Assembly (NCBI GenBank): GCA_022712835.1
Contig: JAFLJU010000274.1
Span: forward strand, 1-32,012
Direction of reading: 5' to 3'
Length of the DNA stretch: 32,012 nt
From: Desulfobacteraceae bacterium
Lineage (GTDB): Bacteria; Desulfobacterota; Desulfobacteria; Desulfobacterales; Desulfobacteraceae
Shown piece after piece: positions 10,002 through 32,012 of this stretch; the stretch's first letter is position 1, and every line of letters starts with the position of its first letter. A program made the position numbers and the translations under genes. The notes beneath the pieces were generated by a model. That model worked only from the letters and a program-made list of their open reading frames with translations. It was not told the origin of the DNA and searched no databases.

Positions 10002-10078
10002 GTTTCGCGTATTTGAGACGCAACAGGACTAGAGGGCAGTTTTACAGTCATTTCTTTCCAAGGAGATCAGTGAAATCC

Positions 10079-13000
10079 ATGAAGCCGAAGTCCTTTGAAA
10101 AGGTACTTAAAGAGGTCAAGGGAAAGCGGATTCTTGTTGCCAACCGGGGAATTCCGGCCAGGCGCATATGCCGTTCCATTACCGAGAGGTTTGATGCCAA
10201 GGCAATCATGACCGCCACGGATGTTGATAAAACATCACCCGCCAGTTCCGGCGCGAACGAGCTGCTCATGCTCGGTTCCGATCCCCGTGCTTATCTTGAT
10301 CTTGACAGAATCATTCGTGAAGCCAAAGACAACGATGTTGTTGCCATTCATCCCGGTTGGGGATTTGGTGCCGAAGACGACACATTCCCTGCAAAATGCA
10401 AGAAAGCTGGCATTATTTTTATTGGCCCTCCACAGGAACCAATGCGTATCCTTGGTAACAAGGTTGCCGTTCGCAAGCTCGCCATCGAGCTGGGTGTACC
10501 GGTCGTTCCCGGTTCTGAGAGTGCCGTATCTATCCCGGAAGCTCGTGAGATCGCAAAGGAAATCGGATTTCCTGTCATGCTCAAGGCTGAAGGCGGCGGC
10601 GGTGGACGTGGCATTTATGAAGTCTATGAAGATGAAGAGCTGGAAAATGCCTTTTCCAAAGCTTCCGCTTTGGCCCAGGCCTCTTTCGGAAATCCGCGGC
10701 TGTACGTCGAAAAGCTGCTGACTTCGGTTCGTCATATTGAAATTCAGGTCATTGCCGATCAGCATGGCAATATATTCTGTCTGGATGAACGTGATTGTTC
10801 TGTTCAGCGCAATCATCAGAAACTTATTGAAATCACACCATCTCCCTGGCCCGGCTATACCGAAGAACTTCGCGCCCGGCTCAAGGATTATTCCAGGCGT
10901 CTTGTGGAAGCCGTTGGCTATTATTCTTTGGCGACGGTCGAATTTTTGGTGAACGCCGAGGGTGTGCCGTTTCTCATTGAGGTCAATACCCGGTTGCAGG
11001 TCGAGCATGGTATCACTGAGTGTCGTTACGGCATTGATCTGGTTGAAGAGCAGATCGCCATCGCATTCGGCGCAGAGCTTCGCCTCAACGAAGAAGATAC
11101 AAAACCGTATCAGTGGGTCATGCAATGCCGCATTAACTGCGAAGATCCCCAGAAGGATTTTGAACCCAATTCCGGGCGTATCACCCGCTATGTCTCTCCT
11201 GGCGGGCAGGGGATTCGCATTGATTCATGCATCGGTGACGGCTATCGTTTTCCGTCCAATTATGATTCTGCGGCGTCCCTGCTGATCGCTTACGGCAATT
11301 CCTGGGAAAAAGTCATTGCCTCAATGAGGCGGGCCTTGCGCGAATACATGATTGGCGGCCTGAAGACGACCATTCCGTTCCATCGCAAGATCATAGATCA
11401 GAAAAAATTTGTTGAATCCACTTATGATACCAATTTTGTGCGTCAGAATTATGCTGAACTCATGGATTACTCGGATCGCGAGCCTGATTCCCTGCGCATG
11501 ACCCGTCTCATCGCTGAGATTTCCGCTTTGGGGTACAACAAGTACGTTCAGCTTGGCGAATATCGTGGCCGTGAAGATAAAAGGGTGGGCCGTTTCGAGT
11601 TGGTCGAATCGCCTGAGGTACCCACTTGGTTCGAGCCGCGCATCGTGCGTGGGATGGACAGGGATAGCATTCTTGATACCCTGCGCAGTGATCGTGAGAG
11701 TGGCATTATCCATATGACGGATACCACCACTCGTGATATTACTCAGTCCAATAGCGGAAACCGCTTCCGTCTGGCCGAGGACATGATTGTCGGCCCGACA
11801 CTTGATAAATGCGGTTTCTTTTCTCTTGAAAATGGCGGAGGCGCGCATTTCCATGTGGCCATGCTCGCCAACATGACCTATCCGTTTCATGAAGCTGCCG
11901 AGTGGAACAAATTCGCGCCCACCACGCTCAAGCAGATTCTCATTCGCTCCACTAATATACTGGGCTATAAGCCGCAGCCAAAGAACGTCATGCGCCTGAC
12001 TGGTGAGATGATCAACGAACATTACGAAATCATCCGTTGCTTTGATTTCCTCAATCATATTGAGAATATGCGTCCATTTGCAGAAGTGGCCATGAATTCG
12101 ACGAAGAATATCTTTGAACCAGCCATTTCATTATCCTGGGCCAAGGGATTCGATGCTGAGCGGTACTTGCTTGTTGCAGAAGATATCATCGCCATGTGTG
12201 CTGATGTAGCAGGTGTCAGCAAGAAGCAGGCTGAGAAGCGGATCATTCTGGGCCTCAAGGATATGGCCGGTGTCTGTCCGCCGAGGTTCATGCGCGAACT
12301 TATCGGAGCTCTTCGGGCCAGATACCCGGAACTGGTCATCCACAGTCATCGTCATTATACCGATGGTCTGTTTGTTCCGACCATGGGTGCTGCCGCTGAA
12401 GCCGGGGCGCATATCGTTGATGTCGCAATCGGTTCAGCCGTTCGTTGGTATGGCCAGGGTGAAGTTCTGTCCACCGCCGCCTACATTGAGGATGAGATCG
12501 GCCTGAAGACGCATCTGGATAAGGATATGATCCGGGCTGCCAATTTTCAGCTCAAGCAGATCATGCCGTACTACGACAAGTATACGGCACCGTATTTTCA
12601 GGGTATTGATCACGATGTGGTCAGGCACGGCATGCCGGGCGGCGCGACATCATCATCTCAGGAAGGCGCACTCAAGCAGGGCTATATCAAGCTGTTGCCC
12701 TATATGCTCAAATTCCTTGAAGGAACCCGCAAAATCATCCGGTATCACGATGTGACTCCCGGTTCGCAGATTACCTGGAACACCGCATTTCTTGCCGTCA
12801 CAGGTGGTTACAAGCGTGGCGGAGAACGTGAGGTTCGCAGGCTCCTCAACATGTTGGATATCGTCAACCTTTGCAAAGAAGAGAATTTGACGGATCTTGA
12901 GCGTACAGCCAGACTCGATCTGTATCGTGATTCCAATGATGCGTTCAGAAATCTTTTGCTTGGCAAGTTTGGTAAACTGCCCCTCGGATTCCCTGAGGAC

Positions 13001-13780
13001 TGGGTTTATCAATCTGCATTCGGTAAAGGTTGGGAAGCAGCCATTAAGGAGCGCACGGAAGAATCTCCGCTCAATACGCTGGTTGACGTTGATCTGGTGG
13101 CGGAAAGAGAAGCCTTGCAGACTCGTCTGCATCGCCAGCCGTCCGAGGAAGAGTTCGTCATGTACCTCAATCATCCTGGCGATGCCATTACGACCATTGA
13201 TTTCTGTGAAAAATACGGTAATATCAATAATTTACCGATTGATGTGTGGTTTGAAGGCCTTGAGAAGGGAGAGGTTCTGCACTTTCAGGGTAATTGTAAA
13301 AAGCCGCACAGAATGCGTATTCTGGATATTTCCGAACCGGACGAGAACGGTATGGTCGTTGTCCGGTATGTCCTTGATTCCGAGATCATGAGCCATCAGG
13401 TCAAGGTTGCCGAGCCGGAAGCCGGGGGCAAGGATATTACGGAAATGGCGAATCCAGCCAATGAATACCATGTCGGTTCGCCGAGCAACGGTGATCTTTG
13501 GGTCACTCATGTGCGTCCGGGAGACAAGGTCAAGGTGGGAGAGGAGTTGTTCAACATCTCCATCATGAAACAGGAAAAGTCAGTGCTTGCGCCAGTTGAT
13601 GGCGTAGTGCGGCGAGTGATCAAAGCTGGCAACTACACCGAGGACAAGAAAATGATCCCGGTCGTGGAAGGAGAACTGCTTATCGAACTCGGACCGGCAG
13701 CGGGCTTATGTCCAACCTGCAAAACTGACATTCCGGGTGAAGACTGCAACTTCTGCCCTAATTGCGGACAGAAAATGTAA
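10079..13780 (+). CDS. pyc: Pyruvate carboxylase with C-terminal zinc ribbon
   Basis: This protein of about 1233 residues carboxylates pyruvate to oxaloacetate with ATP and bicarbonate. Biotin carboxylase comes first (RILVANRGIPARRICRS; ATP loop GGGGGRGIYEV; EVNTRLQVEHGITE). The carboxyltransferase domain starts near residue 560 (TTTRDITQSN), with the carbamylated lysine expected in LKDMAGV and a divergent MPGGATSSSQ loop. The biotin carrier domain ends with MKQEKS, where Lys1164 should be biotinylated (most enzymes have AMKM). The protein ends with four CxxC-type cysteines (CPTC and CPNC, residues 1211-1229), a zinc ribbon not expected in pyruvate carboxylase. The start is either ATG 10079 or GTG 10070: AGGAG at 10061-10065 is 13 or 4 bases away, respectively. 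It sits behind birA and before PEP synthase. Confidence 0.92.
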   Translation: MKPKSFEKVLKEVKGKRILVANRGIPARRICRSITERFDAKAIMTATDVDKTSPASSGANELLMLGSDPRAYLDLDRIIREAKDNDVVAIHPGWGFGAEDDTFPAKCKKAGIIFIGPPQEPMRILGNKVAVRKLAIELGVPVVPGSESAVSIPEAREIAKEIGFPVMLKAEGGGGGRGIYEVYEDEELENAFSKASALAQASFGNPRLYVEKLLTSVRHIEIQVIADQHGNIFCLDERDCSVQRNHQKLIEITPSPWPGYTEELRARLKDYSRRLVEAVGYYSLATVEFLVNAEGVPFLIEVNTRLQVEHGITECRYGIDLVEEQIAIAFGAELRLNEEDTKPYQWVMQCRINCEDPQKDFEPNSGRITRYVSPGGQGIRIDSCIGDGYRFPSNYDSAASLLIAYGNSWEKVIASMRRALREYMIGGLKTTIPFHRKIIDQKKFVESTYDTNFVRQNYAELMDYSDREPDSLRMTRLIAEISALGYNKYVQLGEYRGREDKRVGRFELVESPEVPTWFEPRIVRGMDRDSILDTLRSDRESGIIHMTDTTTRDITQSNSGNRFRLAEDMIVGPTLDKCGFFSLENGGGAHFHVAMLANMTYPFHEAAEWNKFAPTTLKQILIRSTNILGYKPQPKNVMRLTGEMINEHYEIIRCFDFLNHIENMRPFAEVAMNSTKNIFEPAISLSWAKGFDAERYLLVAEDIIAMCADVAGVSKKQAEKRIILGLKDMAGVCPPRFMRELIGALRARYPELVIHSHRHYTDGLFVPTMGAAAEAGAHIVDVAIGSAVRWYGQGEVLSTAAYIEDEIGLKTHLDKDMIRAANFQLKQIMPYYDKYTAPYFQGIDHDVVRHGMPGGATSSSQEGALKQGYIKLLPYMLKFLEGTRKIIRYHDVTPGSQITWNTAFLAVTGGYKRGGEREVRRLLNMLDIVNLCKEENLTDLERTARLDLYRDSNDAFRNLLLGKFGKLPLGFPEDWVYQSAFGKGWEAAIKERTEESPLNTLVDVDLVAEREALQTRLHRQPSEEEFVMYLNHPGDAITTIDFCEKYGNINNLPIDVWFEGLEKGEVLHFQGNCKKPHRMRILDISEPDENGMVVVRYVLDSEIMSHQVKVAEPEAGGKDITEMANPANEYHVGSPSNGDLWVTHVRPGDKVKVGEELFNISIMKQEKSVLAPVDGVVRRVIKAGNYTEDKKMIPVVEGELLIELGPAAGLCPTCKTDIPGEDCNFCPNCGQKM

Positions 13781-14010: not shown

Positions 14011-17000
14011 ATGGCCAAGACCCAGAAAAAGCCTGCCAAACCGGCTGCGACCAGCAAAGCCAGTAAGGCTGAGGCAAAAACTGAGAGTCTCAAAGAGAAG
14101 TTGGTTCTCAACGGATCCGAGATTGAAATGATCGGCGAAGATGCCGAGCTTCTTGTAGGTGGTAAGAACTATAATACCGCCATAATCAGTCAGGTTCCAG
14201 GAATCATGGCTCCTGAATTCAGGGCCATTTCCTCTCATGTATTTCATACTATCCTGGATGAAACAAAGGTTTACGCCGCAGTTGTTCGCGCTACCGTTGA
14301 CAAGGAATACAACAAAGTTGACTGGAGTTCCGATGCCGTAAACGAAGATTCTGAATTTCTTCAGCATTTTGTTCGTGAAGTCGGCAAGAAAGCGCGTGAA
14401 CAGGCAAAGAAGCAGTCGGGTACGCCCATCAAGCTTCGGACATTCATCAACAACGTTGTCGAAGGCTTTGCCACGTCTCCTGAAGGTATCGACCAGCTTC
14501 GCATGCGTTCTGTTCTCGTGCAGTCTGCAATTCTTTCGGTTGAAATTCCTGACGAAATAGGCAAGGCCGTCAAGAGTGCCTATGCTGCCATCTGCAAGGA
14601 GGCAGCTTCTGATGATGTTCCTGTTGCCGTGCGCTCTTCTGCTGCGGGCGAAGACAGCCGCAAGAAGGCATTTGCCGGTCTTCAGGATACGTATTTGAAT
14701 ATTGTGGGTGAGGATGAGTGCCTCATTGCATATCATTGGGATTGCGCTTCCGCCTACAACCTGCGTTCAATGACCTATCGCCGCGAGGCCATCCTCGATG
14801 CCATTACCAAGGCAGAGGAAACCGGCGATGATTCAATTGCCGAACTCGCCAAGAGGGAGTGGGCCATTGAGCACACTTCCTTGTCGGTTTGCATCATGCG
14901 CATGATCAACCCGATCATCTCCGGTACAGCTTTCAGCGCAGATACCGCCACTGGTTGCCGCGGTACTGATCGCAACGACCTCGTTTCCATCGATGCCAGC
15001 TACGGTCTTGGTGAAGCGGTTGTCGGTGGAATGGTTACTCCTGATAAATTCTATGTATTCCAGCGTGATGGTGGCCGTGAGGTCGTCATTCGTTTCATGG
15101 GTTGCAAGGAAAAGAAGATTATTTACAAGCCGGACGGAAGCGGAACTCAGGTCGTGAAAGTCCCTGAGAACGAAGTCTTTCGGTGGGCCCTTTCCATTGC
15201 CCAGGCGGAAATGGTCGCTCAGGGTGTGCGCGCTATCTCCAAGGCTTATGGCGATATGATCATGGACTCCGAGTTCTGTATCGACAAGACAGATCGTCTC
15301 TGGTTCGTGCAGGCCAGACCGGAAACCCGCTGGAACGAAGAATTCGAGCAGCATCCTGACAAGATATTCATGCGCCGTCTTGAAGTTGACAAAAAGGCCA
15401 TTGAGTCTGCTGAAGTCATCCTTGAGGGCAATGGTGCATCCCGTGGCGCAGGGCAGGGGACCGTCAAGTACCTGCGTTCTGCATTGGAACTCAATAAAAT
15501 TAATAAGGGCGAGATTCTGGCTGCCGAACGTACTGACCCGGACATGGTTCCCGGCATGCGTATCGCATCTGCCATTTTGGCCGACGTTGGTGGTGACACC
15601 AGTCATGCGGCCATCACATCTCGTGAACTGGGCATCCCGGCAATCATTGGCATCCAGCGTCTTGAGGTCCTGAGGACTCTTGATGGGCAGCAGGTCACCG
15701 TTGATGGGTCTCGTGGCAAAGTCTACCGGGGTGAACTCCCGCTGGTGGAAGTTGGCGGCGAAATTGATATTGCTGCATTGCCGGCCACCAAGACCAAGGT
15801 CGGCCTGATTCTGGCTGATGTTGGTCAGGCATTGTTCCTGTCTCGTCTGCGTCAGGTTCCCGATTTTGAAATCGGCCTGCTTCGCGCTGAGTTCATGCTT
15901 GGTAATATTGGCGTTCATCCCATGGCTCTCGAAGCCTATGACAAAGCCGAGTTGAATGATCTGGTTGAGGAAAATCTCAAGCAGATGGACAACAAGCTGA
16001 CCAAGGTCATGATCGAGCAGCTTGCAGCCGGCTTGATTACAATGCCGCTCAAGCTTCGCGAATACGTTGGCCTGCTCACCGGCCTGTCCAAAGAAATGGA
16101 CGCTCTGGCCGAGCAAGAAGGTTCGCGCAGCACCGATGAAGTGCTCGCCATGCACCGCAAGTTGCGTGAGATGGACCACAAACTTGATGAACACATCGCC
16201 CACGCTACCGAGCGTCTCGATGTCCTCAAGACATCCATTGATCTTGATGCTCATATTGCTGTTATCCTTGGATATCAAGATGTTCTGGACCCCATGCCTC
16301 AAACGCATAGTGAAGCGTGGAAGATTCGTCAGCAGCATGAACAGGTCGTCGCCGGCTATGTTGCACGTGTGAAGGATGAGCCAGAGCTGGTTGCCTACTT
16401 TGATCAGATAACAGCGATGCGTGAGGAAGTTGCGCTCAAGATGGGCCTCAAGTCTGAAATGGACGAAGTGGCAACTCTGCCGGATCGCATTCGCAATCTC
16501 TTGGAATCTCGTGGTTACACCACAGGTAAAGAAAACTATATTCAGACGCTGTCACAGGGCTTGGCGCTCTTCGCCATGGCTTTCTATGGTAGCAATATTG
16601 TTTACAGAACCACTGACTTCAAGTCCAATGAGTACCGTAACCTCTTAGGTGGCTTGCTCTTTGAGGCTTACGAAGACAACCCCATGATCGGTTATCGTGG
16701 TGTTTCTCGTAATATCCATGACTGGGAACTGGAAGCTTTCAAGCTGGCTCGTGGCATCTATGGCGGCAAGAACCTGAGCATCATGTTCCCATTCGTCCGT
16801 ACTCTGGAAGAAGCGCGCAGCATGAAACGTTACCTCAAGCAGGTACACAATCTGGAATCCGGCAGGGACGGCCTCAAGGTCATCCTCATGGCAGAAATTC
16901 CGAGTAACGCAATTCTGTGTAAGGAATTCCTCAAGGAAGTTGATGGATTCTCCATCGGTTCCAATGATATGACACAGATGGTGCTTGCTACAGACCGCGA

Positions 17001-17601
17001 TAACGCGAGCCTTCAGCACATCTATGATGAAGAAGATCCCGCTGTTGTCTGGTCCATCCTTGCCACCATCTTTGCTGGTCAGCATGTTGGTAAAAAGGTT
17101 GGTTTCTGTGGACAGGGCGTGAGCAACAGCATCATCCTCCGCGGCCTTGTGGCCATCGCAGGCATCGTCTCTGCATCGGTCGTTCCTGATACTTACCGCC
17201 AGACCAAATTCGACATGGCGGCTATCGAAGCTGAAGACATCAAGACTCGCGATCTCGGCAAGTGGCTCGGCGAGCAGCACATGAATAAGCTGCGCGAGCT
17301 TCTTGAGGCCAACAGTTACGGCCATATCCTGAAAAAGTACAAATCTTCCGAAGACTTCATGGAGTGGTATGAGGGCGAGCTGGATCGTTTCAGTGAGCAA
17401 CTCCGCGACAGCATAGATTCTCACAAGGAAGATTTTTACCGCCAGGAAATGGAACTGTTCCGCGCCATGTTCCACAAACCGGTCATCTACGCTGACTGGA
17501 ATTGGACCAGCACAGTTGAAGACGCCATGCGTCATGCTGGATTCAATTCTTTCGATGAGCAGGAAGCTGCACTCGAAATACAGCGTACGAAAGAATGGTA
17601 A
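14011..17601 (+). CDS. ppsA: Enlarged phosphoenolpyruvate synthase-like enzyme
   Basis: This 1196-residue protein of the PEP synthase/pyruvate phosphate dikinase family should convert pyruvate to PEP through a phosphohistidine. A Lys/Ala-rich tail of about 35 residues precedes the ATP-binding domain (VGGKNYNTA, VPVAVRSSAAGEDS, SYGLGEAVVGG, VQARPETRW). The swivelling domain has GGDTSHAAITSRELGIPA with catalytic His532. The C-terminal barrel has RAEFMLGNIGVHP, FKSNEYRNLLGG, NPMIGYRGVSR, FSIGSNDMTQMVLATDRDN and the active-site Cys in GFCGQGVSNS. The usual length is about 800 residues. The extra length is a helical insertion at about 641-830, splitting the barrel, and a C-terminal extension of about 110 residues. 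GGAGG lies five bases before ATG 14011. With pyruvate carboxylase upstream, a gluconeogenic role is likely. Confidence 0.85.
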   Translation: MAKTQKKPAKPAATSKASKAEAKTESLKEKLVLNGSEIEMIGEDAELLVGGKNYNTAIISQVPGIMAPEFRAISSHVFHTILDETKVYAAVVRATVDKEYNKVDWSSDAVNEDSEFLQHFVREVGKKAREQAKKQSGTPIKLRTFINNVVEGFATSPEGIDQLRMRSVLVQSAILSVEIPDEIGKAVKSAYAAICKEAASDDVPVAVRSSAAGEDSRKKAFAGLQDTYLNIVGEDECLIAYHWDCASAYNLRSMTYRREAILDAITKAEETGDDSIAELAKREWAIEHTSLSVCIMRMINPIISGTAFSADTATGCRGTDRNDLVSIDASYGLGEAVVGGMVTPDKFYVFQRDGGREVVIRFMGCKEKKIIYKPDGSGTQVVKVPENEVFRWALSIAQAEMVAQGVRAISKAYGDMIMDSEFCIDKTDRLWFVQARPETRWNEEFEQHPDKIFMRRLEVDKKAIESAEVILEGNGASRGAGQGTVKYLRSALELNKINKGEILAAERTDPDMVPGMRIASAILADVGGDTSHAAITSRELGIPAIIGIQRLEVLRTLDGQQVTVDGSRGKVYRGELPLVEVGGEIDIAALPATKTKVGLILADVGQALFLSRLRQVPDFEIGLLRAEFMLGNIGVHPMALEAYDKAELNDLVEENLKQMDNKLTKVMIEQLAAGLITMPLKLREYVGLLTGLSKEMDALAEQEGSRSTDEVLAMHRKLREMDHKLDEHIAHATERLDVLKTSIDLDAHIAVILGYQDVLDPMPQTHSEAWKIRQQHEQVVAGYVARVKDEPELVAYFDQITAMREEVALKMGLKSEMDEVATLPDRIRNLLESRGYTTGKENYIQTLSQGLALFAMAFYGSNIVYRTTDFKSNEYRNLLGGLLFEAYEDNPMIGYRGVSRNIHDWELEAFKLARGIYGGKNLSIMFPFVRTLEEARSMKRYLKQVHNLESGRDGLKVILMAEIPSNAILCKEFLKEVDGFSIGSNDMTQMVLATDRDNASLQHIYDEEDPAVVWSILATIFAGQHVGKKVGFCGQGVSNSIILRGLVAIAGIVSASVVPDTYRQTKFDMAAIEAEDIKTRDLGKWLGEQHMNKLRELLEANSYGHILKKYKSSEDFMEWYEGELDRFSEQLRDSIDSHKEDFYRQEMELFRAMFHKPVIYADWNWTSTVEDAMRHAGFNSFDEQEAALEIQRTKEW

Positions 17602-19895: not shown

Positions 19896-20651
19896 ATGGA
19901 TATTGCAACACTTATTGGCGTAGTAGGCGCATTTGGCCTTATTATTACCACCATCTTTATGGGTGGCAACCCTGCCGGTTTTATTGATATACCGTCAATG
20001 GTTGTCGTTCTCGGTGGTTCTTTTGCCGTTATCTTTGTCATGTTTCCCTTGAGTATCGTCATTGGTACAGTCAAGGTTGGTTTGAAGACGTTACTCTTCA
20101 AATCAAACGACCCGCTGGAAGTCGTTCAGCTGATCGTTACTTTGGCAGACACCGCGCGTAAGGAAAGCCTTGTGGCTCTTGAAAAAGTGACCATTGAGGA
20201 TGCCTTTCTCAAGAAAGGCGTCATGCTGGTTGTCGATGGGTCCAGTGAGGCCCTTGTTCGGTCCGTCATGGAGATCGAGCTGGACTTTATGAAACAACGA
20301 CATCGGCAAGGTCAGGCCGTTTTCAAAGGCCTTGGTAATATGGCACCCGCCATGGGAATGATCGGTACCTTGATCGGTCTGGTCAACATGCTCTCAAATC
20401 TTTCTGACCCTGCTTCCATTGGCCCTGCAATGGCGGTTGCTCTCCTGACCACCTTCTACGGCGCTGTTATCGCCAACTGTCTGTTTCTCCCATTCGCCAC
20501 CAAGCTCGAAGTACGCTCCGACGAGGACGCATTATTCATGCAGCTTATGGTCGAAGGTGTTTCTTCCTTACAACGCGGAGATCATCCATCTGTTGTGAAA
20601 GAAAAGCTCCAGGCATTCCTGCCGCCGAATCTGCGCGAACAAACTGCATAA
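19896..20651 (+). CDS. motA: MotA/PomA flagellar stator subunit A
   Basis: This 251-residue inner-membrane protein is the A subunit of the flagellar stator, which converts ion flow to torque on the rotor. It has four predicted membrane spans: two at the N-terminus (IATLIGVVGAFGLIITTIFM and the MVVVLGGSFAVIFVMF segment), and two at about 145-200 carrying the conserved Pro and Gly residues (GLGNMAPAMGMIGTLIGLV, then AVALLTTFYGAVIANCL). The loop between spans 2 and 3 is cytoplasmic and charged. Residues around spans 3 and 4 match the sodium-type PomA pattern more than E. coli MotA. It lies 3 bases after fapA and 23 bases before the first motB gene. Confidence 0.93.
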   Translation: MDIATLIGVVGAFGLIITTIFMGGNPAGFIDIPSMVVVLGGSFAVIFVMFPLSIVIGTVKVGLKTLLFKSNDPLEVVQLIVTLADTARKESLVALEKVTIEDAFLKKGVMLVVDGSSEALVRSVMEIELDFMKQRHRQGQAVFKGLGNMAPAMGMIGTLIGLVNMLSNLSDPASIGPAMAVALLTTFYGAVIANCLFLPFATKLEVRSDEDALFMQLMVEGVSSLQRGDHPSVVKEKLQAFLPPNLREQTA

Positions 20652-20674
20652 GCTCCTGTTTATAGAGATGATTC

Positions 20675-21442
20675 ATGGCTGATGAAGTTGTAGAAGAAAT
20701 ACAAAAAAAGCCTCCGTCTGAGCCCCCAGCGGATGAGGGGTTACCTGCGTGGATGGCGACGTTTGCCGATATGGTGACGTTGCTCCTGTGCTTTTTTGTT
20801 CTTTTGCTGTCCTTTGCCGAACAAAGCGAAGAAAAATATCGTGATGCACTCGGTTCCTTGAAAGGCGCTTTTGGTGCAACGGAACTCAGAGCCGTTTCTG
20901 ACGATATGGCCCAGTTTAATACCAGTCCCGCCGCCAAAGAATTGGCTGCCAAGATTTCCCATGATGAACGGTTGCTGCTTGGTGTCGTTATGCGAATCAA
21001 GTCGCTCATGGAAGAAGAGGAAGACGTCAAACTCAAAGAGGGTACCGGCGTTACCGCAGATAGAGATGGCGTTGTATTTAGTGCCAACTCAGCATCCATG
21101 TTTGAACATGGCTCTGCTGAATTATCCAGTGGTTCCGAACGAATACTGGATAATGTCATCAAGGTACTGAAAGATTATAAACTGAATTTGGTCGTTCGTG
21201 GTCATACCGATGATCGGCCGATTTCATCGGTCAAGTTCCCGTCCAATTGGGAGTTATCAGCCGCTCGAGCAGCTGTAGCTCTCGATTATATTATCAATAA
21301 GGGCGGTATCGAGATCAACAGGGCTAAAGCTGTCGGGTATGCAGATACTCGGCCGTCGGCTCCCAATGACTCGCAAGAGAACCGTGCGAAGAACCAACGT
21401 GTTGAATTTTATCTTCATATGCCACAGCGTGACGCGTGGTAA
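20675..21442 (+). CDS. motB: MotB/PomB stator subunit B, first copy
   Basis: This 255-residue B subunit has one transmembrane helix and a periplasmic peptidoglycan-binding OmpA-like domain. The ion-binding aspartate is Asp32 in WMATFADMVTLLLCFFVLLL, a sequence close to sodium-type PomB. A plug or linker region follows. The C-terminal domain shows LVVRGHTDDRP, SNWELSAARA and AKNQRVEF, which anchor the stator to the cell wall. It lies between motA and a second motB copy in the same transcript, only 13 bases upstream of the latter. Confidence 0.92.
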   Translation: MADEVVEEIQKKPPSEPPADEGLPAWMATFADMVTLLLCFFVLLLSFAEQSEEKYRDALGSLKGAFGATELRAVSDDMAQFNTSPAAKELAAKISHDERLLLGVVMRIKSLMEEEEDVKLKEGTGVTADRDGVVFSANSASMFEHGSAELSSGSERILDNVIKVLKDYKLNLVVRGHTDDRPISSVKFPSNWELSAARAAVALDYIINKGGIEINRAKAVGYADTRPSAPNDSQENRAKNQRVEFYLHMPQRDAW

Positions 21443-21455
21443 TAGGCGGGTATAA

Positions 21456-22208
21456 ATGGCTGATGATGCAGTAGTTGAAGAAGAAGGGGGAGGAGTAAAA
21501 TCTTCACCACCTCCACAGAGTGAGGGCATTCCAGCATGGATGGCGACCTTTGCCGACATGGTGACGTTGCTGCTGTGCTTCTTTGTCTTGCTGTTGTCCT
21601 TTACCAATTCTGACATCACAAACTTTCGGAAGATGATGGGATCGGTACAGGAAGCCCTTGGTGTCCAGCATGACGAAAGATCGGCCCTCTATACTCCATA
21701 TGCTGAGGCGAGCTTCAAGGAGCGCAGAAGCGTCCGCGAAAACCGCGAAATAGTCGAACTGGGCGCACTCTTGAAAAAATTTATACGCGCCAAAGATTTA
21801 TCCAGTATGGCCCGTGTCAGTAGCGACAAGTCCGGCGTTATGCTGCGGTTCGATAACAGTGCTATGTTTGATAAAGGTTCTGCTCAGTTGAAAGCTGGCT
21901 CGTCGAAAGCATTGAATGCTGTTATTGAAGGTATGGAAACCAAAGATTTTAATCTTATCATTCGTGGCCATACCGATGGAAAGGCGAGCGAATCCACGTT
22001 GTATTCCTCGAATTGGGAGTTGTCTGCGTCACGTGCTGCTACATGCTTACGGTACATTTTGGCGAATTCAACCATCGCTGCCAAGCGTATGAAAGCAGTT
22101 GGTTACGCTAGCGCCAAACCTATTTTGCCCAGTACCACTGAAGCGAACAAGGCCGTTAATCGCAGGGTCGAATTTTTCTACATGCCGGTTGGCAGAGGCA
22201 AGTGGTAG
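21456..22208 (+). CDS. motB: MotB/PomB stator subunit B, second copy
   Basis: This 250-residue protein is a paralogue of the preceding gene. It has the ion-binding aspartate (Asp34 in WMATFADMVTLLLCFFVLLL) and the OmpA-like domain (LIIRGHTDGKA, SNWELSASRA, AVNRRVEFFYMP). The membrane helix is nearly identical in the two copies, while the linker and periplasmic domain have diverged. Both proteins end in Trp. GGCGGG lies 5 bases before ATG 21456. It may form homodimers or mixed dimers with the first MotB around the single MotA. It is the last gene of the operon, followed by a strong terminator. Confidence 0.92.
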   Translation: MADDAVVEEEGGGVKSSPPPQSEGIPAWMATFADMVTLLLCFFVLLLSFTNSDITNFRKMMGSVQEALGVQHDERSALYTPYAEASFKERRSVRENREIVELGALLKKFIRAKDLSSMARVSSDKSGVMLRFDNSAMFDKGSAQLKAGSSKALNAVIEGMETKDFNLIIRGHTDGKASESTLYSSNWELSASRAATCLRYILANSTIAAKRMKAVGYASAKPILPSTTEANKAVNRRVEFFYMPVGRGKW

Positions 22209-22274: not shown

Positions 22275-24860
22275 CTATTTGCTCATAATACGTTTCAAAG
22301 CTGCTGTGAGCTGCTCAAAAGAGACTGGCTTGGACATATAGTCATTCATGCCGACTTTGAGGAAGTTGTCGCGATCCTCGGGCATCGCGTGTGCCGTTAA
22401 TGCGATGATAGGGATGCTCGATACATCGATCATGTTCACCGAGGTTCTGATAGCTTTGGTTGCTTCAATTCCATCCATGATAGGCATTTGGATGTCCATG
22501 AAAATACAGTCGAATTCTTCTTCAAGAAGTATACTCAGGGCCTTTTTACCGTCGCCTACACATGTGGGAATATGGCCCATTTTCTGGAGCATCCGGCTAA
22601 TGGCTATCTGATTGACGCGGTCATCTTCGACAACCAGAATGTTTAATCCGGTAACTTGCGGCTGCAAGATTTCCTGGGTGGGTCTCTCAGAGACTTGTTC
22701 GTTGGTCGGAAGGGCGAGTTGCAGGGTCACATATATGGTGGTGCCTTCGCCTGCCTCACTGTCCACGGTGATGGTCCCTTTCATGTACTCTACAAGGCTT
22801 CGGACAATACCGAGCCCAAGGCCTGTTCCCTGGTATCGACGAGTATACGTGCCATCAACCTGCGTGAAGGATTCGAAAACATAGCCGATTTTTTCAGAAG
22901 GAATACCGATACCTGTGTCGGTAATGGTGAAGAGGACGTCGACCATTCCTTTGACGCGTTCGTTTGGGAGCTTTTGCGCATAGATACTGATGCCGCCTTC
23001 GTCCGTGAACTTCACGGAGTTACCGACCAGATTGAAGAGAATCTGTCGTATTCGCACCTCGTCACCAATGAGGAAATCAGGGAAGCCCGGTTCAACTTCC
23101 ATGGAGAGTTCAAGATCTTTTGACTCCGTGGCATGTTTGAAGAACCTGAAAATGGTCTCCAATATTTCATTGGGAGAAAACAACTGTGTATGCAGGGCGA
23201 GTTTTCCTGCTTCAATCTGTGCGATGTTCAGAATATCATTAATGACGTTGAGCAGAACCTTACTGGAACTAATGGCAGTATCGATATATTCAACCTGCTC
23301 AGGATTCAGAGAGGTGTCTCTCGTTAACTGTAACATGCCAAGGATGCCGTTGAGCGGTGTGCGCAGTTCGTGGCTCATGTTTGTCAGGAATTCGGTCTTG
23401 GCCTGGCTGGCAGACTCCGCATCTTGCTTTGCAATCAGCAGGGCAGTCTGAATCGCTTTACGTTCGGTTATATCTTCGGCCACACCAACAAGGCGAACGC
23501 GAACACCTTCTTCGTCATAAACGGGGAAAGACTGTGCACGAATCCAACGCTGAACACCTTCGGGCAAATGAATGGTAAATTCTTCATCAAGAATACGACC
23601 TTCGGTTCTGAGAGAATTCACAGCTTCTGTGACTCTCAAACGGTCTTTCTTGTCAATGGCGAGGAAGAATGATTCCGGGTTTTCATACAGTGATTCGCGC
23701 GTACGCCCCCATATCATTTCATAGGAAGGGCTGGCGTAAATTACACGGTTATCAGCAATGTCGCTGATCCAGTATGCTTCGTGAATGTTCTCCACAAGCT
23801 GTCTGAATCGTTCCTCATTTTCCTTAATCTCACGCTCACGTATGTTGACCTGTCTGACCATGTTGTCGAACTCTTGTTCAATGATGGCCAGCTCTGTAAA
23901 CGTTTCCTGCTCATCCAGCGGCTTTTGGTAGTGCCCCTGTACCGTCAGTTCAATGGACTGCGTAAACAGAGCGAGGGGTTTAACGATGCTTTCTCTGAGT
24001 TTATACTGGAGGAAGCGCGCGAAAATAAAGAACAGGCATAAAATGAGCGTCAGTAAAGTTAGCAGGGGCGTAAGAATCGGCAGAAAGACTTCTTTAAGCG
24101 GCTTGGATATCAGCAGGATCCAGTCGGTTTGCGGGATCTTTGAGATTGTGCCGAGGTAGTACGTGCCTAATTCTTTATAAATATCAGTATGATGTGTCTT
24201 AAGGTTGGTGTCGCGCACAATACTGAGATTGCCGATGTTATCCTGTGTCAGAACGCGCTGGAAGTCTGGATGAGAAATGAGGTTGCCGTAAGCATCGCAG
24301 AGGATCAGAATTCCCTCATTATTGGGAAGGAGGTTCTCCAGGTGTTTTTGCAATGTTTTCAGGCTGAGTTCACCGATAAGGATATTCCCAGTCTGAAGGC
24401 GTACTCCAACGTAAACGACCAGATTTTGGGTAGCGGGGGAGGGGGTCGGATCTGAAAGGATCATCGGAGTCTTCGTTACCTTATCTATGAACAACTCCAT
24501 GGAGAGCAAATCACTCGCCTGTGGTGACGTTGCCAATATCTTTCCTTCCGGGTCAAGGTACATAAGTCGTTCAAAATGTGGGTATGCTTGGAGAAAATTG
24601 CTTAAAACCCAGTGGAACCAGAAGGGGTCGTACCGCGTGATACTCATTGAGAGCGACGTGAGTGCGGTCTTGGCATCGTTCAGATGTGATGAAATCTGGC
24701 GGCTGAGAGATTGTGTTAGAATCGCATTCTTAACTTCAAACTCATGGCTTTTTTCGTATGCAGCGTACCCACCCAATAAAAGGATGAGGCAAATACTTGG
24801 AATAAGCATCCAATTGGTCAGGTTTTTCCGAACCAAGCTTCGTAAAGAATTAGTAGCCAT
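22275..24860 (-). CDS. Membrane hybrid sensor histidine kinase (dCache-HAMP-PAS-HisKA-HATPase-REC)
   Basis: This 861-residue inner-membrane sensor has a membrane helix at 17-35, a periplasmic dCache-like domain at about 36-255, and a second helix at 260-284. HAMP (about 285-345) and PAS (about 350-468, ending [11 protein letters not shown]) follow. HisKA carries phosphoacceptor His497 ([12 protein letters not shown]). The ATPase has the N box ([10 protein letters not shown]) and DTGIGIP and GTGLGLGIV motifs. The C-terminal receiver has Asp789 ([11 protein letters not shown]) and Lys in MSKPVS. No output domain is attached, so phosphate probably passes on to an Hpt protein or stays as an internal sink. 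A lone solute-binding lipoprotein gene ends 42 bases upstream on the same strand and could present ligand to the Cache domain. Confidence 0.92.
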
Positions 24861-24902
24861 CTGTCAGTGTTGCCCCTGGTTTTTTATGAGCATTAAGAAA
24901 AA

Positions 24903-26027
24903 TTAGCGCATTTCAACTGTTCGGAATTCGCCTTCCTGGACAGTTACAATAAATAAATTCCGTTGCACATCACCATACTCATTGAGCTTGAAGTCGCTGA
25001 CAACACCGGTAATGGTATTGCTCGGAGCCATGGCATCCACCAAGCCTTTGGATGAACCGCCAGTCTTTTCCAAACCTGCGGCCAAGGCTAACACTGCTTC
25101 ATAACTGAATGCTGATGAGAAATTGGGAGTCGCCCCGAATCTGTTTTTGTAAGATTCTCTAAATTTTATGAAATTAGGATTCGGATTATCTGCGGCATAA
25201 TCTATGACAAAGATCATCCCTTCAGCATACTGCCCACCCCATTTTAGTAATTTCTCCGTATAGGCCCAAGGGGCTGAGAGTATGCGTGTTTTAAGCTCTG
25301 CATTGTGGATTCGCTGTATAATAGAAACGGCATCTTGGGCTGGGCAAGTCAGCAGGACTGCGTCGGGGTTCTGCTCAATGAGTGCATCGATTATCGGGTC
25401 CCAGTTTGGTTTTTCACTGGAGGAATAATTGAGTTGCTGAAGGACTTTTCCGCCTGCCTTGGTGAATGATTTTACAAAGCTGTTTGTAAATGACTGCGAA
25501 TAGCTTCGGTTATCACTTTCGGCCACGGTAACGACGGTCATGATATCCAGTGCAGAGCGAGTATAGTTGGATAATTCTTTGCTTTGCATGGTGTTTTCAA
25601 CAACGATTCGAAAAAAGGAATCTGCTTTTTCTGAAAGTTCAGGAGTCGAAGACGTCGGGGAAATCATGACGATTCCCTGTTTATTGATAAGTGGCATGAC
25701 GGCCAACGTTTGTGAGCTCGTCATATGTCCGACGATGGCGACGGCACCGGCATTAATAAGCTCTTTGTCTGCTTGAATCGCGCCTTCCGGTGTATTGAGG
25801 TCGTCTTTAGCGATCAGTTTCAAAGGCCGTCCATCGACTCCACCGCTAGCATTGATACGTTCAACGGCCAGCATGGCACCATTGCGGCCGGTGACGCCAA
25901 TATCTGAGAGTTTTCCCTTGAGCTGCCCGGAGAAGCCGATGACAATAGGTGCAGAATCGCCACATGCATGCAGTAAAAGCGTGAGGATAAGAATGGGTAT
26001 AATGCGCAGTATTTGTTTACGTTTCAT
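24903..26027 (-). CDS. Leu/Ile/Val-type periplasmic binding lipoprotein
   Basis: This 374-residue exported protein belongs to the branched-chain amino acid type (LivK/AmiC-like, type 1 periplasmic fold) of solute-binding proteins. Residues 1-21 form a lipoprotein signal with Lys/Arg at the start, a hydrophobic core and lipobox LLHAC, so Cys22 should be lipidated. The mature part shows IVIGFSGQLKG, NGAMLAVERINASGGVDGRP, VGHMTSSQTLAVMP, ISPTSSTPELS and FSSAFSYEAVLALAAGLEK. No permease or ATPase gene lies nearby. The next gene, 42 bases downstream, is a sensor kinase with a periplasmic domain, so I infer a sensory rather than transport role. The ligand is unknown. The ribosome binding site is weak. 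Confidence 0.88.
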   Translation of the reverse strand: MKRKQILRIIPILILTLLLHACGDSAPIVIGFSGQLKGKLSDIGVTGRNGAMLAVERINASGGVDGRPLKLIAKDDLNTPEGAIQADKELINAGAVAIVGHMTSSQTLAVMPLINKQGIVMISPTSSTPELSEKADSFFRIVVENTMQSKELSNYTRSALDIMTVVTVAESDNRSYSQSFTNSFVKSFTKAGGKVLQQLNYSSSEKPNWDPIIDALIEQNPDAVLLTCPAQDAVSIIQRIHNAELKTRILSAPWAYTEKLLKWGGQYAEGMIFVIDYAADNPNPNFIKFRESYKNRFGATPNFSSAFSYEAVLALAAGLEKTGGSSKGLVDAMAPSNTITGVVSDFKLNEYGDVQRNLFIVTVQEGEFRTVEMR

Positions 26028-28772: not shown

Positions 28773-29942
28773 ATGATAGACTCCGCATTGTTAGAGATTA
28801 GAAAGACGGTTATTCCGGAATTGGTGTTTGGTGTTGGCTCAAGGCGGCTCTTAGGACAGCATGCAAATAATTTATCACTTCAAAAACCATTAGTAGTCAC
28901 AGACGGTGGAATGATTGCGACTCCTTGGGTCGAAGATATTCTGATCACTTTGCGTGATGCAGGTCTTGAATCAGTCGTTTTCAGTGACGTATCTCCCAAT
29001 CCTCGGGACTATGAGGTTATGGAAGGAGCCGAGCTCTATGCAAAGACAAAGTGTGATTCCATAATCGCTATTGGAGGCGGAAGTCCCATGGATTGCGCAA
29101 AAGGGATCGGCATTATTGTTTCTAATGGGCGGAATATTCTTGATTACGAAGGTGTCGATCAAGTGGATCATCCATGTCCTCCCCTGATTTGCATACCAAC
29201 AACAGCTGGATCGTCCGCTGACGTTTCCCAGTTCGCCATTATCAACGACACTACTCGAAAAGTTAAAATCGCCATCGTATCGAAAATGATGATTCCAGAC
29301 ATGGCTTTCGTCGACGCGGAAGTGACGACGACCATGTCGAAGGAGCTTACAGCCCATACCGGGTTGGATGCTCTGACCCATGCTATTGAAGCATACTGCT
29401 CCAATGCGCATTCTCCCACAACGGATTTGCATGCGCTGGAGGCTGTCCGGTTAATTTCCGAATGGCTGGTGTCAGCCATCAACAACCCCGATGACCTTGT
29501 TGCCAGAAGCCAAGTTATGCTGGGGAGCATGTATGCAGGTTTTGCCTTTTCAAACGCCATTCTGGGCGCAGTTCATGCAATGGCGCACAGTCTAGGAGGT
29601 TTGCTAGACCTACCACATGGGCTGTGCAACGCTATCTTGTTGGATCATGTTGTAGCCTACAACTTTGACTCCGCCCCACAGAGATTTATTAAGCTTGCTG
29701 ACGCGTTGGGGGCAGATGTTGCGAGTATCCAAAGTACCGATGAGGGCAAAAGAATTCTGCTTGACCGCATAGCGGAGATAAAACAAGCAGCAGGTGTGAC
29801 GATTACCTTGGGCGATGTAGGCGTCAAAAAAGAACATTTGGCACAACTTGCTGCTCACGCTCTTGATGATGCGTGTATGATAACAAATCCCAAAGATGCC
29901 GACCTTGCAGATATAATAACTATATACAAACAAGCTTTGTAA
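28773..29942 (+). CDS. ercA: Iron-containing alcohol dehydrogenase, ErcA type
   Basis: This 389-residue group III (iron) alcohol dehydrogenase has the NAD-binding GGGSPMDCAKGIG, a TTAGSSADVSQFAI segment, and all four expected metal ligands: Asp and His in TGLDALTHAIE, His in LGAVHAMAHSLGG and His in LDLPHGLCNA. The start (LEIRKTVIPELVFGVGSRRL), SPNPRDYEVM and EGVDQV are what I remember of ErcA, the alcohol dehydrogenase-like protein of Pseudomonas ethanol-oxidation regulation, as opposed to classic AdhB. Catalytic residues look intact, so it may act as enzyme, sensor or both. AAAGGG lies eight bases before ATG 28773. A histidine kinase gene starts 2 bases after its stop, matching the association of ercA with sensor kinases. 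Confidence 0.88.
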   Translation: MIDSALLEIRKTVIPELVFGVGSRRLLGQHANNLSLQKPLVVTDGGMIATPWVEDILITLRDAGLESVVFSDVSPNPRDYEVMEGAELYAKTKCDSIIAIGGGSPMDCAKGIGIIVSNGRNILDYEGVDQVDHPCPPLICIPTTAGSSADVSQFAIINDTTRKVKIAIVSKMMIPDMAFVDAEVTTTMSKELTAHTGLDALTHAIEAYCSNAHSPTTDLHALEAVRLISEWLVSAINNPDDLVARSQVMLGSMYAGFAFSNAILGAVHAMAHSLGGLLDLPHGLCNAILLDHVVAYNFDSAPQRFIKLADALGADVASIQSTDEGKRILLDRIAEIKQAAGVTITLGDVGVKKEHLAQLAAHALDDACMITNPKDADLADIITIYKQAL

Positions 29943-29944
29943 CT

Positions 29945-32012
29945 ATGTCAAAAAGCAAAGAAGAAGCCCGGAGACGACTTATAGGCTTGGGCGAGAAATC
30001 TATAGGGAAAAGTTATTACCCAGAGTTGAAAAAACGACTGGAAGAACTCGAGGGTATCAACAAGCGTTTGACCGCCATCGTCCGTTCGGCTCGATTGTTT
30101 GCCCAGTATGATCGATTGAATGAGATCGCTACGCCACTTTTGGAGGAATTCGCCAAAAATATGGTGGCCTCAGGTGGGGCGTTGTACCTACTCGAAGAGG
30201 GCGCTCTTTTGCTCGCGGCAGCCTTGGATAAAAGCCATACAGCAGAGCATCTAGCTCTCCCACTACCTAATACCAACCCGATAGGTGCGGCGCTGACGAC
30301 GAAAAGGCCGGTCCGGATCGAGGACTTGCTTTCCGCTGGGGAAATTGATGCAAGCGGATGGGGCGGGCACACCAATGGCACGCTGCTCGTTCTTCCTCTG
30401 CTGGACACCCACCAAAAGGTTCTTGGCGTGGTGACGCTCCACAATAAGAACACTCCCCCCTTTTCGAAAGTCGATGCAGAGATTGGCCACATTTTTGCTT
30501 CGTATCTTTGCGAGATATTGCGGTCAGTCAGAGCCCTAGAGAAATTGACAAGCAGCGAGGAAAAATACCGAGATCTATACGAGAACGCACCGATCGGGTC
30601 ATTTCTAGCAACTCCTGATGGTCAATACCTCAGTGTAAACCCAGAGCTTGCCAAGCTCTATGGCTATGAATCCCCTGAGGTTTTAATGAGCTTGACTCAT
30701 GACATTGGCAAGGAGCTCTATGCGCACCCTGAAGATTGGCTCCGCGTACTGGAGATAGTTGCCAGAGAGGGCGAGTGTCTCGATTTTGAATGCCAGCGTA
30801 GGCATAAGGATGGGCACCTTTTCTGGACATCTATGAACATGAGAGCGAAATTAGATGAGCATGGCGAAATCGTCTTGTTGCAAGGATTCACGAAGGACAT
30901 CGACCTGCAGAAGCAGCATGAATCGGCTCTCATCGAAGCCAAGGATAAAGCGGAGGCAGCCAATGCTGCAAAGTCCGAGTTTCTTGCGAATATGAGCCAT
31001 GAGATACGGACACCACTTAATGGTATAATTGGCATGCTACATCTTCTTCAGATGTCAAAAATGGATGAGGAGCAAGCTGACTTTACCGACAAGGCGCTCC
31101 TTTCTGGTAAAAGATTGACCGCACTGCTTTCTGACATTCTCGACCTTTCTGTCGTGGAGTCAGGAAAGTTGCGCCTGAACGAAGGGGCGTTGGATATACC
31201 AGACCTCATAGATTCCGTGGAGAACCTGTTTACAATTACTGCACAGCAAAAGGGGATAGAGTTATCCACCAATATCAACATAAGGAGTCAGCAAGAGCTT
31301 ATCGGTGATGACTTACGGCTAAGACAGATTCTTTTCAATCTTGTCGGCAATGCAGTAAAGTTTACTGAAGAAGGCGTCGTTAAGCTGGATATTTTCTTTC
31401 TTAAATATCACAAGGAAGGTCAGGCGCGCATGCTTATTACAGTCGAGGACTCTGGACCCGGAATATCAGAAGACAATTTTAAGCATGTATTCGAGATGTT
31501 TAGTCAAGCAGACCAAGGGTTCAAACGTAGCTATCAGGGGGCGGGTCTTGGTCTCCCTATTGTCAAACGGCTGGTGACTTTGATGAATGGAACGCTTTGT
31601 CTCGAAAGCCGCCTGGGCGAAGGCACGACGTTTTTCGTATCGATACCATTGAACGTCAGTACCAATGTATCGGGACTTCTCCGAAAACCTATTGGCAAAG
31701 AACATTCTGCCGTCGCAGAGAGTGCGGAAGGTGGAAAGACAGTGGTACTTCTTGTCGAGGATGAAAGAGTCAACTCAATCGCACTTTCTCGTTTGATTGA
31801 AAAGATGGGTAACATCGAAGTCATCACAGTAGAGAATGGCGAAAAGGCTATTCAGAAAATGCACGAAACTCAATTCGACTTCGTGTTTATGGACATCCAA
31901 ATGCCTGTAATGGACGGTATCGAAGCGACGAAATTGGTCAGAGCGGGACAAGCCGGTCTCAACAACGTGAACATTCCGATCATCGCTATGACAGCGTATG
32001 CCATGCAGGGAG
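29945..32012 (+). CDS. Soluble GAF-PAS hybrid sensor histidine kinase, cut by window end
   Basis: The frame is open from ATG 29945 to the last base (689 codons visible), so the gene continues past the window. No membrane segment is seen, so it should be cytoplasmic. The order is a short N-terminal helix ([20 protein letters not shown]), GAF (about 45-195), PAS (about 205-320), HisKA with His352 ([16 protein letters not shown]), ATPase ([32 protein letters not shown]) and a receiver with Asp650 ([12 protein letters not shown]) and the switch Thr in IIAMTAYA. The conserved receiver Lys and any Hpt or output domain lie beyond the edge. It starts 2 bases after the ercA stop, so the two are translationally linked, which suggests that the kinase reads or is modulated by the ErcA protein or its metabolite. 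Confidence 0.93.

Follow-up and report, generated by a model that had tools for sequence, protein, structure and literature searches.

The analyzed stretch of DNA, positions 1-32,012 of a contig from a Desulfobacteraceae bacterium (JAFLJU010000274.1; the stretch is hereafter the window), ends in a gene pair encoding ErcA, a regulatory protein of the iron-dependent alcohol dehydrogenase (Fe-ADH) type, and a soluble hybrid histidine kinase. The kinase opens with an N-terminal tag of ~40 residues (consensus REKIIGLGExSxRKSYYPELQxRLxELERF), which in the bacterial and archaeal genomes surveyed stands almost exclusively behind ErcA, while the remainder of the partner protein is exchanged. The pair is probably a receptor-transducer of the ErcA type, in which ErcA acts as a soluble alcohol or redox receptor and couples to the output protein through the tag. 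This reading is favored because ErcA is tracked by the tag and not by the sensor domains. The ErcA-kinase pairing itself is already known from Pseudomonas; the tag module appears to be a new element. Searches of the tag against Pfam and NCBIfam returned chance-level matches only and no credible family, and no description of the module was found in the open-licence papers searched.

The ercA-kinase pair of the window

The dehydrogenase matches the NCBI model NF041833 ("alcohol dehydrogenase-like regulatory protein ErcA") with 596.7 bits over residues 8-389 (cut-off 550), whereas the next best NCBI models stay far under their own cut-offs. It is composed of the Pfam domains Fe-ADH (PF00465) and ADH_Fe_C (PF25137). 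The motifs LEIRKTVIPELVFGVG, GSSADVSQFAI, and EGVDQV, quoted in the preliminary description in support of an ErcA-like protein, are all present in the open reading frame (ORF), and the family assignment is borne out by the model score and by the tree described below. The GGGS motif and the expected metal site are intact. D199, H203, H268, and H282, expected from FucO to be the metal ligands, occupy columns that are invariant in 50 aligned rows. The closest database relatives share 99%, 81%, and 75% identity with the window ErcA.

The Fe-ADH tree, built by a quick method with Shimodaira-Hasegawa-like approximate likelihood ratio (SH-aLRT) support, comprises 114 rows: 74 ErcAs followed by the tag form of the window (class I), 14 dehydrogenases followed by a second tag form (class II), and 26 uncoupled Fe-ADHs. 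The class I ErcAs including that of the window form one clade (support 99) apart from the uncoupled enzymes; clustering with ordinary AdhB-type enzymes, the outcome that the preliminary description had set against its own proposal, was not seen. The 14 class II rows also group together (support 95), as do the 26 uncoupled rows (support 35). Tag class maps onto the dehydrogenase tree with two label changes, which is the minimum possible and was reached in 0/200 shuffles. The N-terminal motif KFxxPE is found in 68/74 class I, 13/14 class II, and 0/26 uncoupled dehydrogenases, with the KTVIPE of the window scored as a miss.

Within the class I clade, the window ErcA lies in a 14-row set (support 97) together with 13 rows, every one of them from the order of genome G050. 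Judged by sequence identity, this order is most likely Desulfovibrionales: a Humidesulfovibrio sp. protein (P0045) has the same sequence as the ErcA of G496 (L061), and 13 other ErcAs named from the order show 63-89% identity to loci of the set. NCBI labels a number of Desulfovibrionales proteins ErcA. By its ErcA alone, the window would most likely be assigned to Desulfovibrionales as well. The placement fits the earlier suggestion that the host is a probable sulfate reducer.

When the ErcA of locus L002 and its tag were modeled as a single chain with a monomeric ErcA, AlphaFold2 returned a confident Fe-ADH fold. Template modeling scores, normalized to the target, were 0.93-0.97 against Bacillus methanolicus Mdh2 (8zrl), Zymomonas AdhB (3owo), and Escherichia coli FucO (1rrm), with 0.97 for Mdh2. 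These catabolic enzymes have the fold and the expected metal ligands in common with ErcA. The nearest experimental structures, which belong to catabolic dehydrogenases of methanol and other alcohols, would suit an ordinary catabolic alcohol dehydrogenase lying beside an unrelated kinase, an explanation that is nevertheless extremely improbable in view of the NF041833 match over cut-off, the separate clade, and the adjacency to a tagged partner in every over-cut-off case. It was rejected on sequence by the tree placement and the invariant adjacency. The surveyed uncoupled Fe-ADHs, unlike ErcA, lie outside the coupled clades and are devoid of KFxxPE; the 8zrl, 3owo, and 1rrm proteins themselves are outside the tree.

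The ercA stop codon (TAA, 29940-29942) is followed by the kinase ATG at 29945, which agrees with the 2-base spacing reported earlier between the dehydrogenase and a GAF-PAS-kinase-receiver gene. The window holds the first 689 residues of the kinase and ends within its receiver domain. HisKA, HATPase_c, and the partial receiver, with the acceptor His and Asp present, identify the protein as a hybrid histidine kinase (Table 1). Its most hydrophobic stretch of 19 residues has a Kyte-Doolittle mean of only 1.36, and a membrane helix is therefore not expected, in keeping with the soluble kinase of the preliminary description. Against the NahK/ErcS model NF041832, the kinase reaches 150.4 bits (cut-off 400; profile positions 1-336 of 370 covered) and is therefore not an ErcS by the criterion of this model. 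Promoter and terminator scans yielded no more than the same scans on shuffled sequences.

Table 1. Features of the ercA-kinase pair in the window
Feature	Position	Strand	Basis
ercA, Fe-ADH-type regulatory protein, 389 residues	28773..29942	+	NF041833, PF00465, PF25137, tree clade
ErcA N-terminal motif KTVIPE (consensus KFxxPE in kinase-coupled classes)	28803..28820	+	motif count
Stretch with expected metal ligands D199, H203, H268, H282	29367..29618	+	motifs; alignment columns
Soluble hybrid histidine kinase, cut by window end	29945..32012	+	ORF, Pfam domains, hydropathy
N-terminal tag module, class I form, kinase residues 1-45	29945..30079	+	alignments, genome surveys
GAF	30116..30508	+	PF13185/PF01590, residues 58-188
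PAS	30596..30901	+	PF13426/PF08447, residues 218-319
HisKA, presumed phospho-acceptor His352 in SHEIRTP	30968..31162	+	PF00512, residues 342-406; motif
HATPase_c	31304..31654	+	PF02518, residues 454-570
Receiver domain, incomplete; DIQMPVMDG present	31745..32012	+	PF00072 positions 1-81 of 111, residues 601-687

Distribution of the tag and its two classes

A starting set was assembled with the window ErcA alone as query on named genome contigs, and the next gene was read at each of the 21 loci obtained (33-62% identity). In L001-L008, L012, L013, L020, and L021, the next protein opens with a segment of the window type (diverged in L005), and these loci span Gammaproteobacteria, Bacteroidota, Clostridia, methanogens, Geobacteraceae, and Desulfuromonadaceae. 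The second tag form is present in the next protein of L009-L011 (Bacillota) and L014. Neither form was found in the next protein of L015-L019, whose dehydrogenases are 33-37% identical to the window ErcA.

Residue conservation was derived from 81 tags with E<1e-6, aligned on K[SNT][YHF][YF], which occurs in 81/81. Relative to this anchor, the most conserved positions are G at -8 (100%), S at -3 (97%), Y at +3 (98%), P at +4 (97%), and L at +6 and +13 (97% each). The tag of the window contains the core G..S..K.YYPEL.......L within its first 50 residues, with G replacing R at -1. The class I profile (alignment A2) has 12 rows, among them this tag and rows supplied by G004, G005, and G007.

Behind the tag, the partner proteins diverge. 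Ten partners, that of the window and nine reached via ErcA alone, are on average 60% identical to one another across 30 residues of the tag, 28% in the 150 residues that follow, and 30% in the final 200. The domain scan covered 73 partners, those left out being mostly near copies and cut ORFs; four of the 73 belong to class II, and L031 and L032 are without an intact adjoining ErcA. PAS was found in 66 of them, HATPase_c in 56, HisKA in 49, receiver in 18, GAF_2 in 12, and HisKA_2 in six, with GGDEF (eight), EAL (seven), HD (one), and SpoIIE (one) as further output domains. The tag is the constant part of the partner because sensor and output domains differ among these 73 proteins. In two Clostridia (L006 and L013, downstream of 10608), the tag protein was read from sequence as a GGDEF-HD protein. 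The gene after it in L006 encodes a POR_N/TPP_enzyme_C/ferredoxin architecture like that of indolepyruvate ferredoxin oxidoreductase, and that in L013 is similar by reading.

The linkage was surveyed in five genome sets with 824 genome rows, the ErcA model and the 12-tag profile each being run on the same genomes (G050 is counted twice, and at least four genomes occur in two sets). A tag directly follows 119/119 ErcA matches over the cut-off (118 distinct), and chance adjacency was rejected on this count. Conversely, 131 of the 138 strong tag matches (E<=1e-5) stand directly behind a gene of the ErcA family. The order of G050 contributes 83 ErcAs over cut-off in 77 of its 150 genomes, all 83 followed by a tag, and 87 of its 88 tags are paired. 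In the 249 genomes of Pseudomonadota, the phylum of the Marinobacter genome, 15 ErcAs and 15 tags (E<=0.01) are paired one to one. A tag is located behind 7/7 ErcAs over cut-off in the phylum of G011 (148 genomes), 2/2 in Bacteroidota (148 genomes), and 12/12 in the methanogen phylum (129 genomes), where 20 of 25 tags are directly paired. Among the matches listed below the cut-off, a tag was present in 8/10 for the methanogen phylum and 0/2 for Bacteroidota; in the order of G050, 4/67 of those listed carry a class I tag and 63/67 do not. ErcA over cut-off was absent from all 14 named control genomes. The conservation of ercA-kinase adjacency in relatives, which the preliminary description had proposed as a check, is thereby established in the order of G050 and in four other sets.

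Seven strong tags are not directly behind an ErcA: two follow ErcA remnants (the ErcA of G016 is without its middle; the other case is G563), three are second tag genes, one lies at a contig end (G590), and one is an orphan. The second tag genes, in G634, G673, and G678, lie a short distance before an ErcA that is followed by a tag gene as well. Weak tag matches (1e-5 to 0.01) comprise the class II tags G011:C89 and G031 and the chance-like G011:C6 and G728. Several of these arrangements were inspected at the locus level. L029:6787-7296 (+) is an ErcA with an in-frame loss of residues ~115-323, followed by an intact-looking tag protein. At L031:3473-5299 (+), only the first part of ErcA remains before the tag protein, and the same archaeal genome has an intact pair (L043). 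The archaeal loci L033, L034, and L035 show the order tag gene-ErcA-tag gene on one strand, that is, one receptor with two possible outputs. The orphan tag is located at L032:3808-5253 (+) in G492, which has a normal pair (L070) elsewhere in the genome.

The two genes commonly overlap. Relative to ercA, the partner is read in frame +1 in 72/75 distinct pairs and in 87/87 pairs from the order of G050, where the tag match starts before the ErcA match ends in 62/87. The pair of the window, with the kinase starting 2 bases past the ercA stop, is an exception, and other partner ORFs start 92, 130, and 262 nt behind ercA. Such a uniform frame is what would be left by a single overlap event that placed the start codon of the partner within the 3' end of ercA, after which the block was passed on and the conserved segment reflects common descent. 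Pure co-inheritance of this kind is nonetheless very unlikely: the most conserved tag residues sit downstream of the overlap while the rest of the partner is exchanged, and tags also occur away from it, both at the three distant starts and as the upstream second tag genes of three archaeal genomes.

Class II consists of 14 Fe-ADHs (L009-L012, L014, L030, L091-L096, L104, L105) followed by kinase-type proteins with the tag form LLGxExSKIGFYxEVKxKIxELE. Ten of these dehydrogenases were scored against the ErcA model and reach 404-499 bits, all under the cut-off of 550, with L009-L012 outside the scoring. A response-regulator gene adjoins the pair in L009-L011, L030, L093, L094, L096, and L104, and a receiver, a sigma54-activator domain, and a Fis-type helix-turn-helix were found in 5/5 regulators tested (L009, L010, L030, L094, L096). 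In the phylum of G011 (148 genomes), a class II profile of 11 tags yielded nine strong matches (E<1e-10), 9/9 directly behind an Fe-ADH; only G095 and G123 are independent of the profile because 7/9 of the genomes supplied rows to it. Of its 25 weak matches, four fall on class I tags (G156, G046, G131, G011:C107; E 8e-6 to 0.008). The other 21 have E>=7e-4, and 19/21 align only from position 23, the coiled-coil half.

Proposed coupling of ErcA to the output protein

We infer that ErcA docks physically on the tag, and the ligand, the signaling direction, and the regulated genes are proposed in the same sense. ErcA would retain the Fe-ADH fold with the expected metal site and serve as a soluble receptor, the state of which may be altered by a short alcohol or aldehyde together with nicotinamide adenine dinucleotide (NAD(H)), either by binding or by turnover. 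The kinase tag is predicted to form a helix-turn-helix with the turn at LGExS and a second helix from about KSYYPEL that would continue into GAF/PAS. In the AlphaFold2 run with aligned tag rows, the model shows two helices, 387-399 and 405-433 (the latter GRKSYYPEL...), joined by a loop at LGDNS, with block means of up to 84 in the predicted local distance difference test (pLDDT). By engaging the tag, ErcA would set the activity of the attached output. In the window kinase, the signal might then pass from His352 to the receiver, from which a phosphotransfer protein would relay it to a regulator encoded elsewhere.

Alternatively, the coupling could proceed by metabolite only: ErcA would produce an aldehyde or NADH, the GAF/PAS domains of the kinase would sense the product, and the N-terminal segment would be a dimerization helix without contact to ErcA. 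The intact metal site and GGGS motif, the PAS in 66/73 and GAF_2 in 12/73 partners, and the predicted helicity of the tag are all compatible with this scheme. It is considered unlikely, as sensor and output domains change while the tag remains and tracks ErcA almost invariably, and a general dimerization helix would be expected also without ErcA, whereas 15/15 Pseudomonadota tags stand behind it.

Several observations weigh against the proposed receptor-transducer. Co-inheritance without contact would equally give conserved adjacency of overlapping genes, and the orphan tag G492:C9, with no ErcA found nearby, is the sole strong case of a tag on its own. With 50 ErcA-rich rows, AlphaFold2 gave tag blocks with mean pLDDT values of only 39-58, and the helical tag of the other run has no defined placement relative to ErcA. 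The window pair itself deviates from KFxxPE in its ErcA and is without the R at -1 in its tag. As for the metabolic-sensor pair suggested in the preliminary description, the ErcA family and the conserved adjacency stand; the N-terminal tag had been missed, and the kinase fails the NahK/ErcS model.

Beyond the window, the Fe-ADH fold may well be a general receptor subunit across bacteria and archaea that docks on a portable tag of ~40 residues borne by histidine kinases, GGDEF/EAL proteins, HD proteins, and a SpoIIE-type phosphatase. Specificity would then be divided among two or more enzyme-tag pairs: ErcA in class I, and another Fe-ADH in class II, where a response regulator of the sigma54 type often comes next. 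A tag that tracks the dehydrogenase while outputs change is a concrete contact candidate, with specific residues, for signaling between ErcA and the kinase, and the linkage suggests how cells attach an alcohol sensor to many kinds of signaling proteins. The tag further lets candidate alcohol-receptor proteins be recognized by sequence in many genomes, those of sulfate reducers and methanogens among them, and points to a route for building alcohol sensors.

Known systems and other genes of the window

ErcA-ErcS of Pseudomonas aeruginosa (PA1991-PA1992) and YiaY-YiaZ of P. putida (PP_2682-PP_2683) likewise consist of an Fe-ADH-type protein followed by a hybrid histidine kinase. According to a 2026 review (PMC12997753), the ercA-ercS pair (yiaY-PP_2683/yiaZ) is co-cistronic and stands above the regulator of pyrroloquinoline quinone (PQQ)-dependent alcohol oxidation. 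Either gene is required for normal induction of the ped cluster, a change of H281 in YiaY impairs this induction, and AlphaFold 3 predicts that the N-terminal domains are in contact; the mechanism of ErcA/YiaY signaling to the kinase is termed unresolved there. The link of Pseudomonas ercA to a sensor kinase of ethanol oxidation, cited in the preliminary description, is confirmed by this source, and PMC7427536 and PMC10308882 restate it.

The Marinobacter partner (L005) and those in further genomes of its phylum, L076 and L078 for example, carry the tag in forms like LLGLGSHSARKSHYPxL, and these proteins are presumably ErcS orthologues. Compared to ErcS, the window kinase has GAF and PAS and remains under the NahK/ErcS cut-off. 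Among the other ORFs of the window, which were read but only partly searched, neither an erbR/agmR-like regulator nor a PQQ alcohol dehydrogenase was recognized.

NosP-NahK is another system in which a separate sensor protein governs a hybrid kinase, although its receptor differs from ErcA; the comparison is drawn in PMC12997753. G222 encodes, ~19 kb away from its ErcA pair, a hybrid kinase of the PAS type that is 46% identical over 437 residues to the ErcS-like kinase of L078; the position and similarity of this kinase suggest that it is NahK. The tag GLGExS...KSYYPEL is absent from it, with a weak coiled-coil match only (5.5 bits). The fetched flanks of G218, G299, and G327 contain no kinase of comparable similarity to the ErcS-like kinase. 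An expectation of the tag in NosP/FIST-coupled kinases found no support, given the placement of all 15 Pseudomonadota tags behind ErcA and the one untagged paralogue, the FIST proteins themselves not having been searched.

Elsewhere in the window, a second hybrid kinase is encoded at 22275-24860 (-) with PAS, HisKA, HATPase, and REC domains and a dCache match below the gathering score. It starts 42 bases behind the gene of a Peripla_BP_6-type periplasmic binding protein (24903-26027, -), and the arrangement at 22275-26027 resembles TorT/TorS or LuxP/LuxQ. A pyruvate-carboxylase-like gene (10013-13780, 1255 residues) lies beside a gene like pyruvate phosphate dikinase/phosphoenolpyruvate synthase (14011-17601, 1196 residues), a possible gluconeogenic unit; a search of plasmids for the lineage found no more than remote pyruvate carboxylases. 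At 19896-22208, a MotA_ExbB gene is followed by two tandem MotB_plug-OmpA genes.

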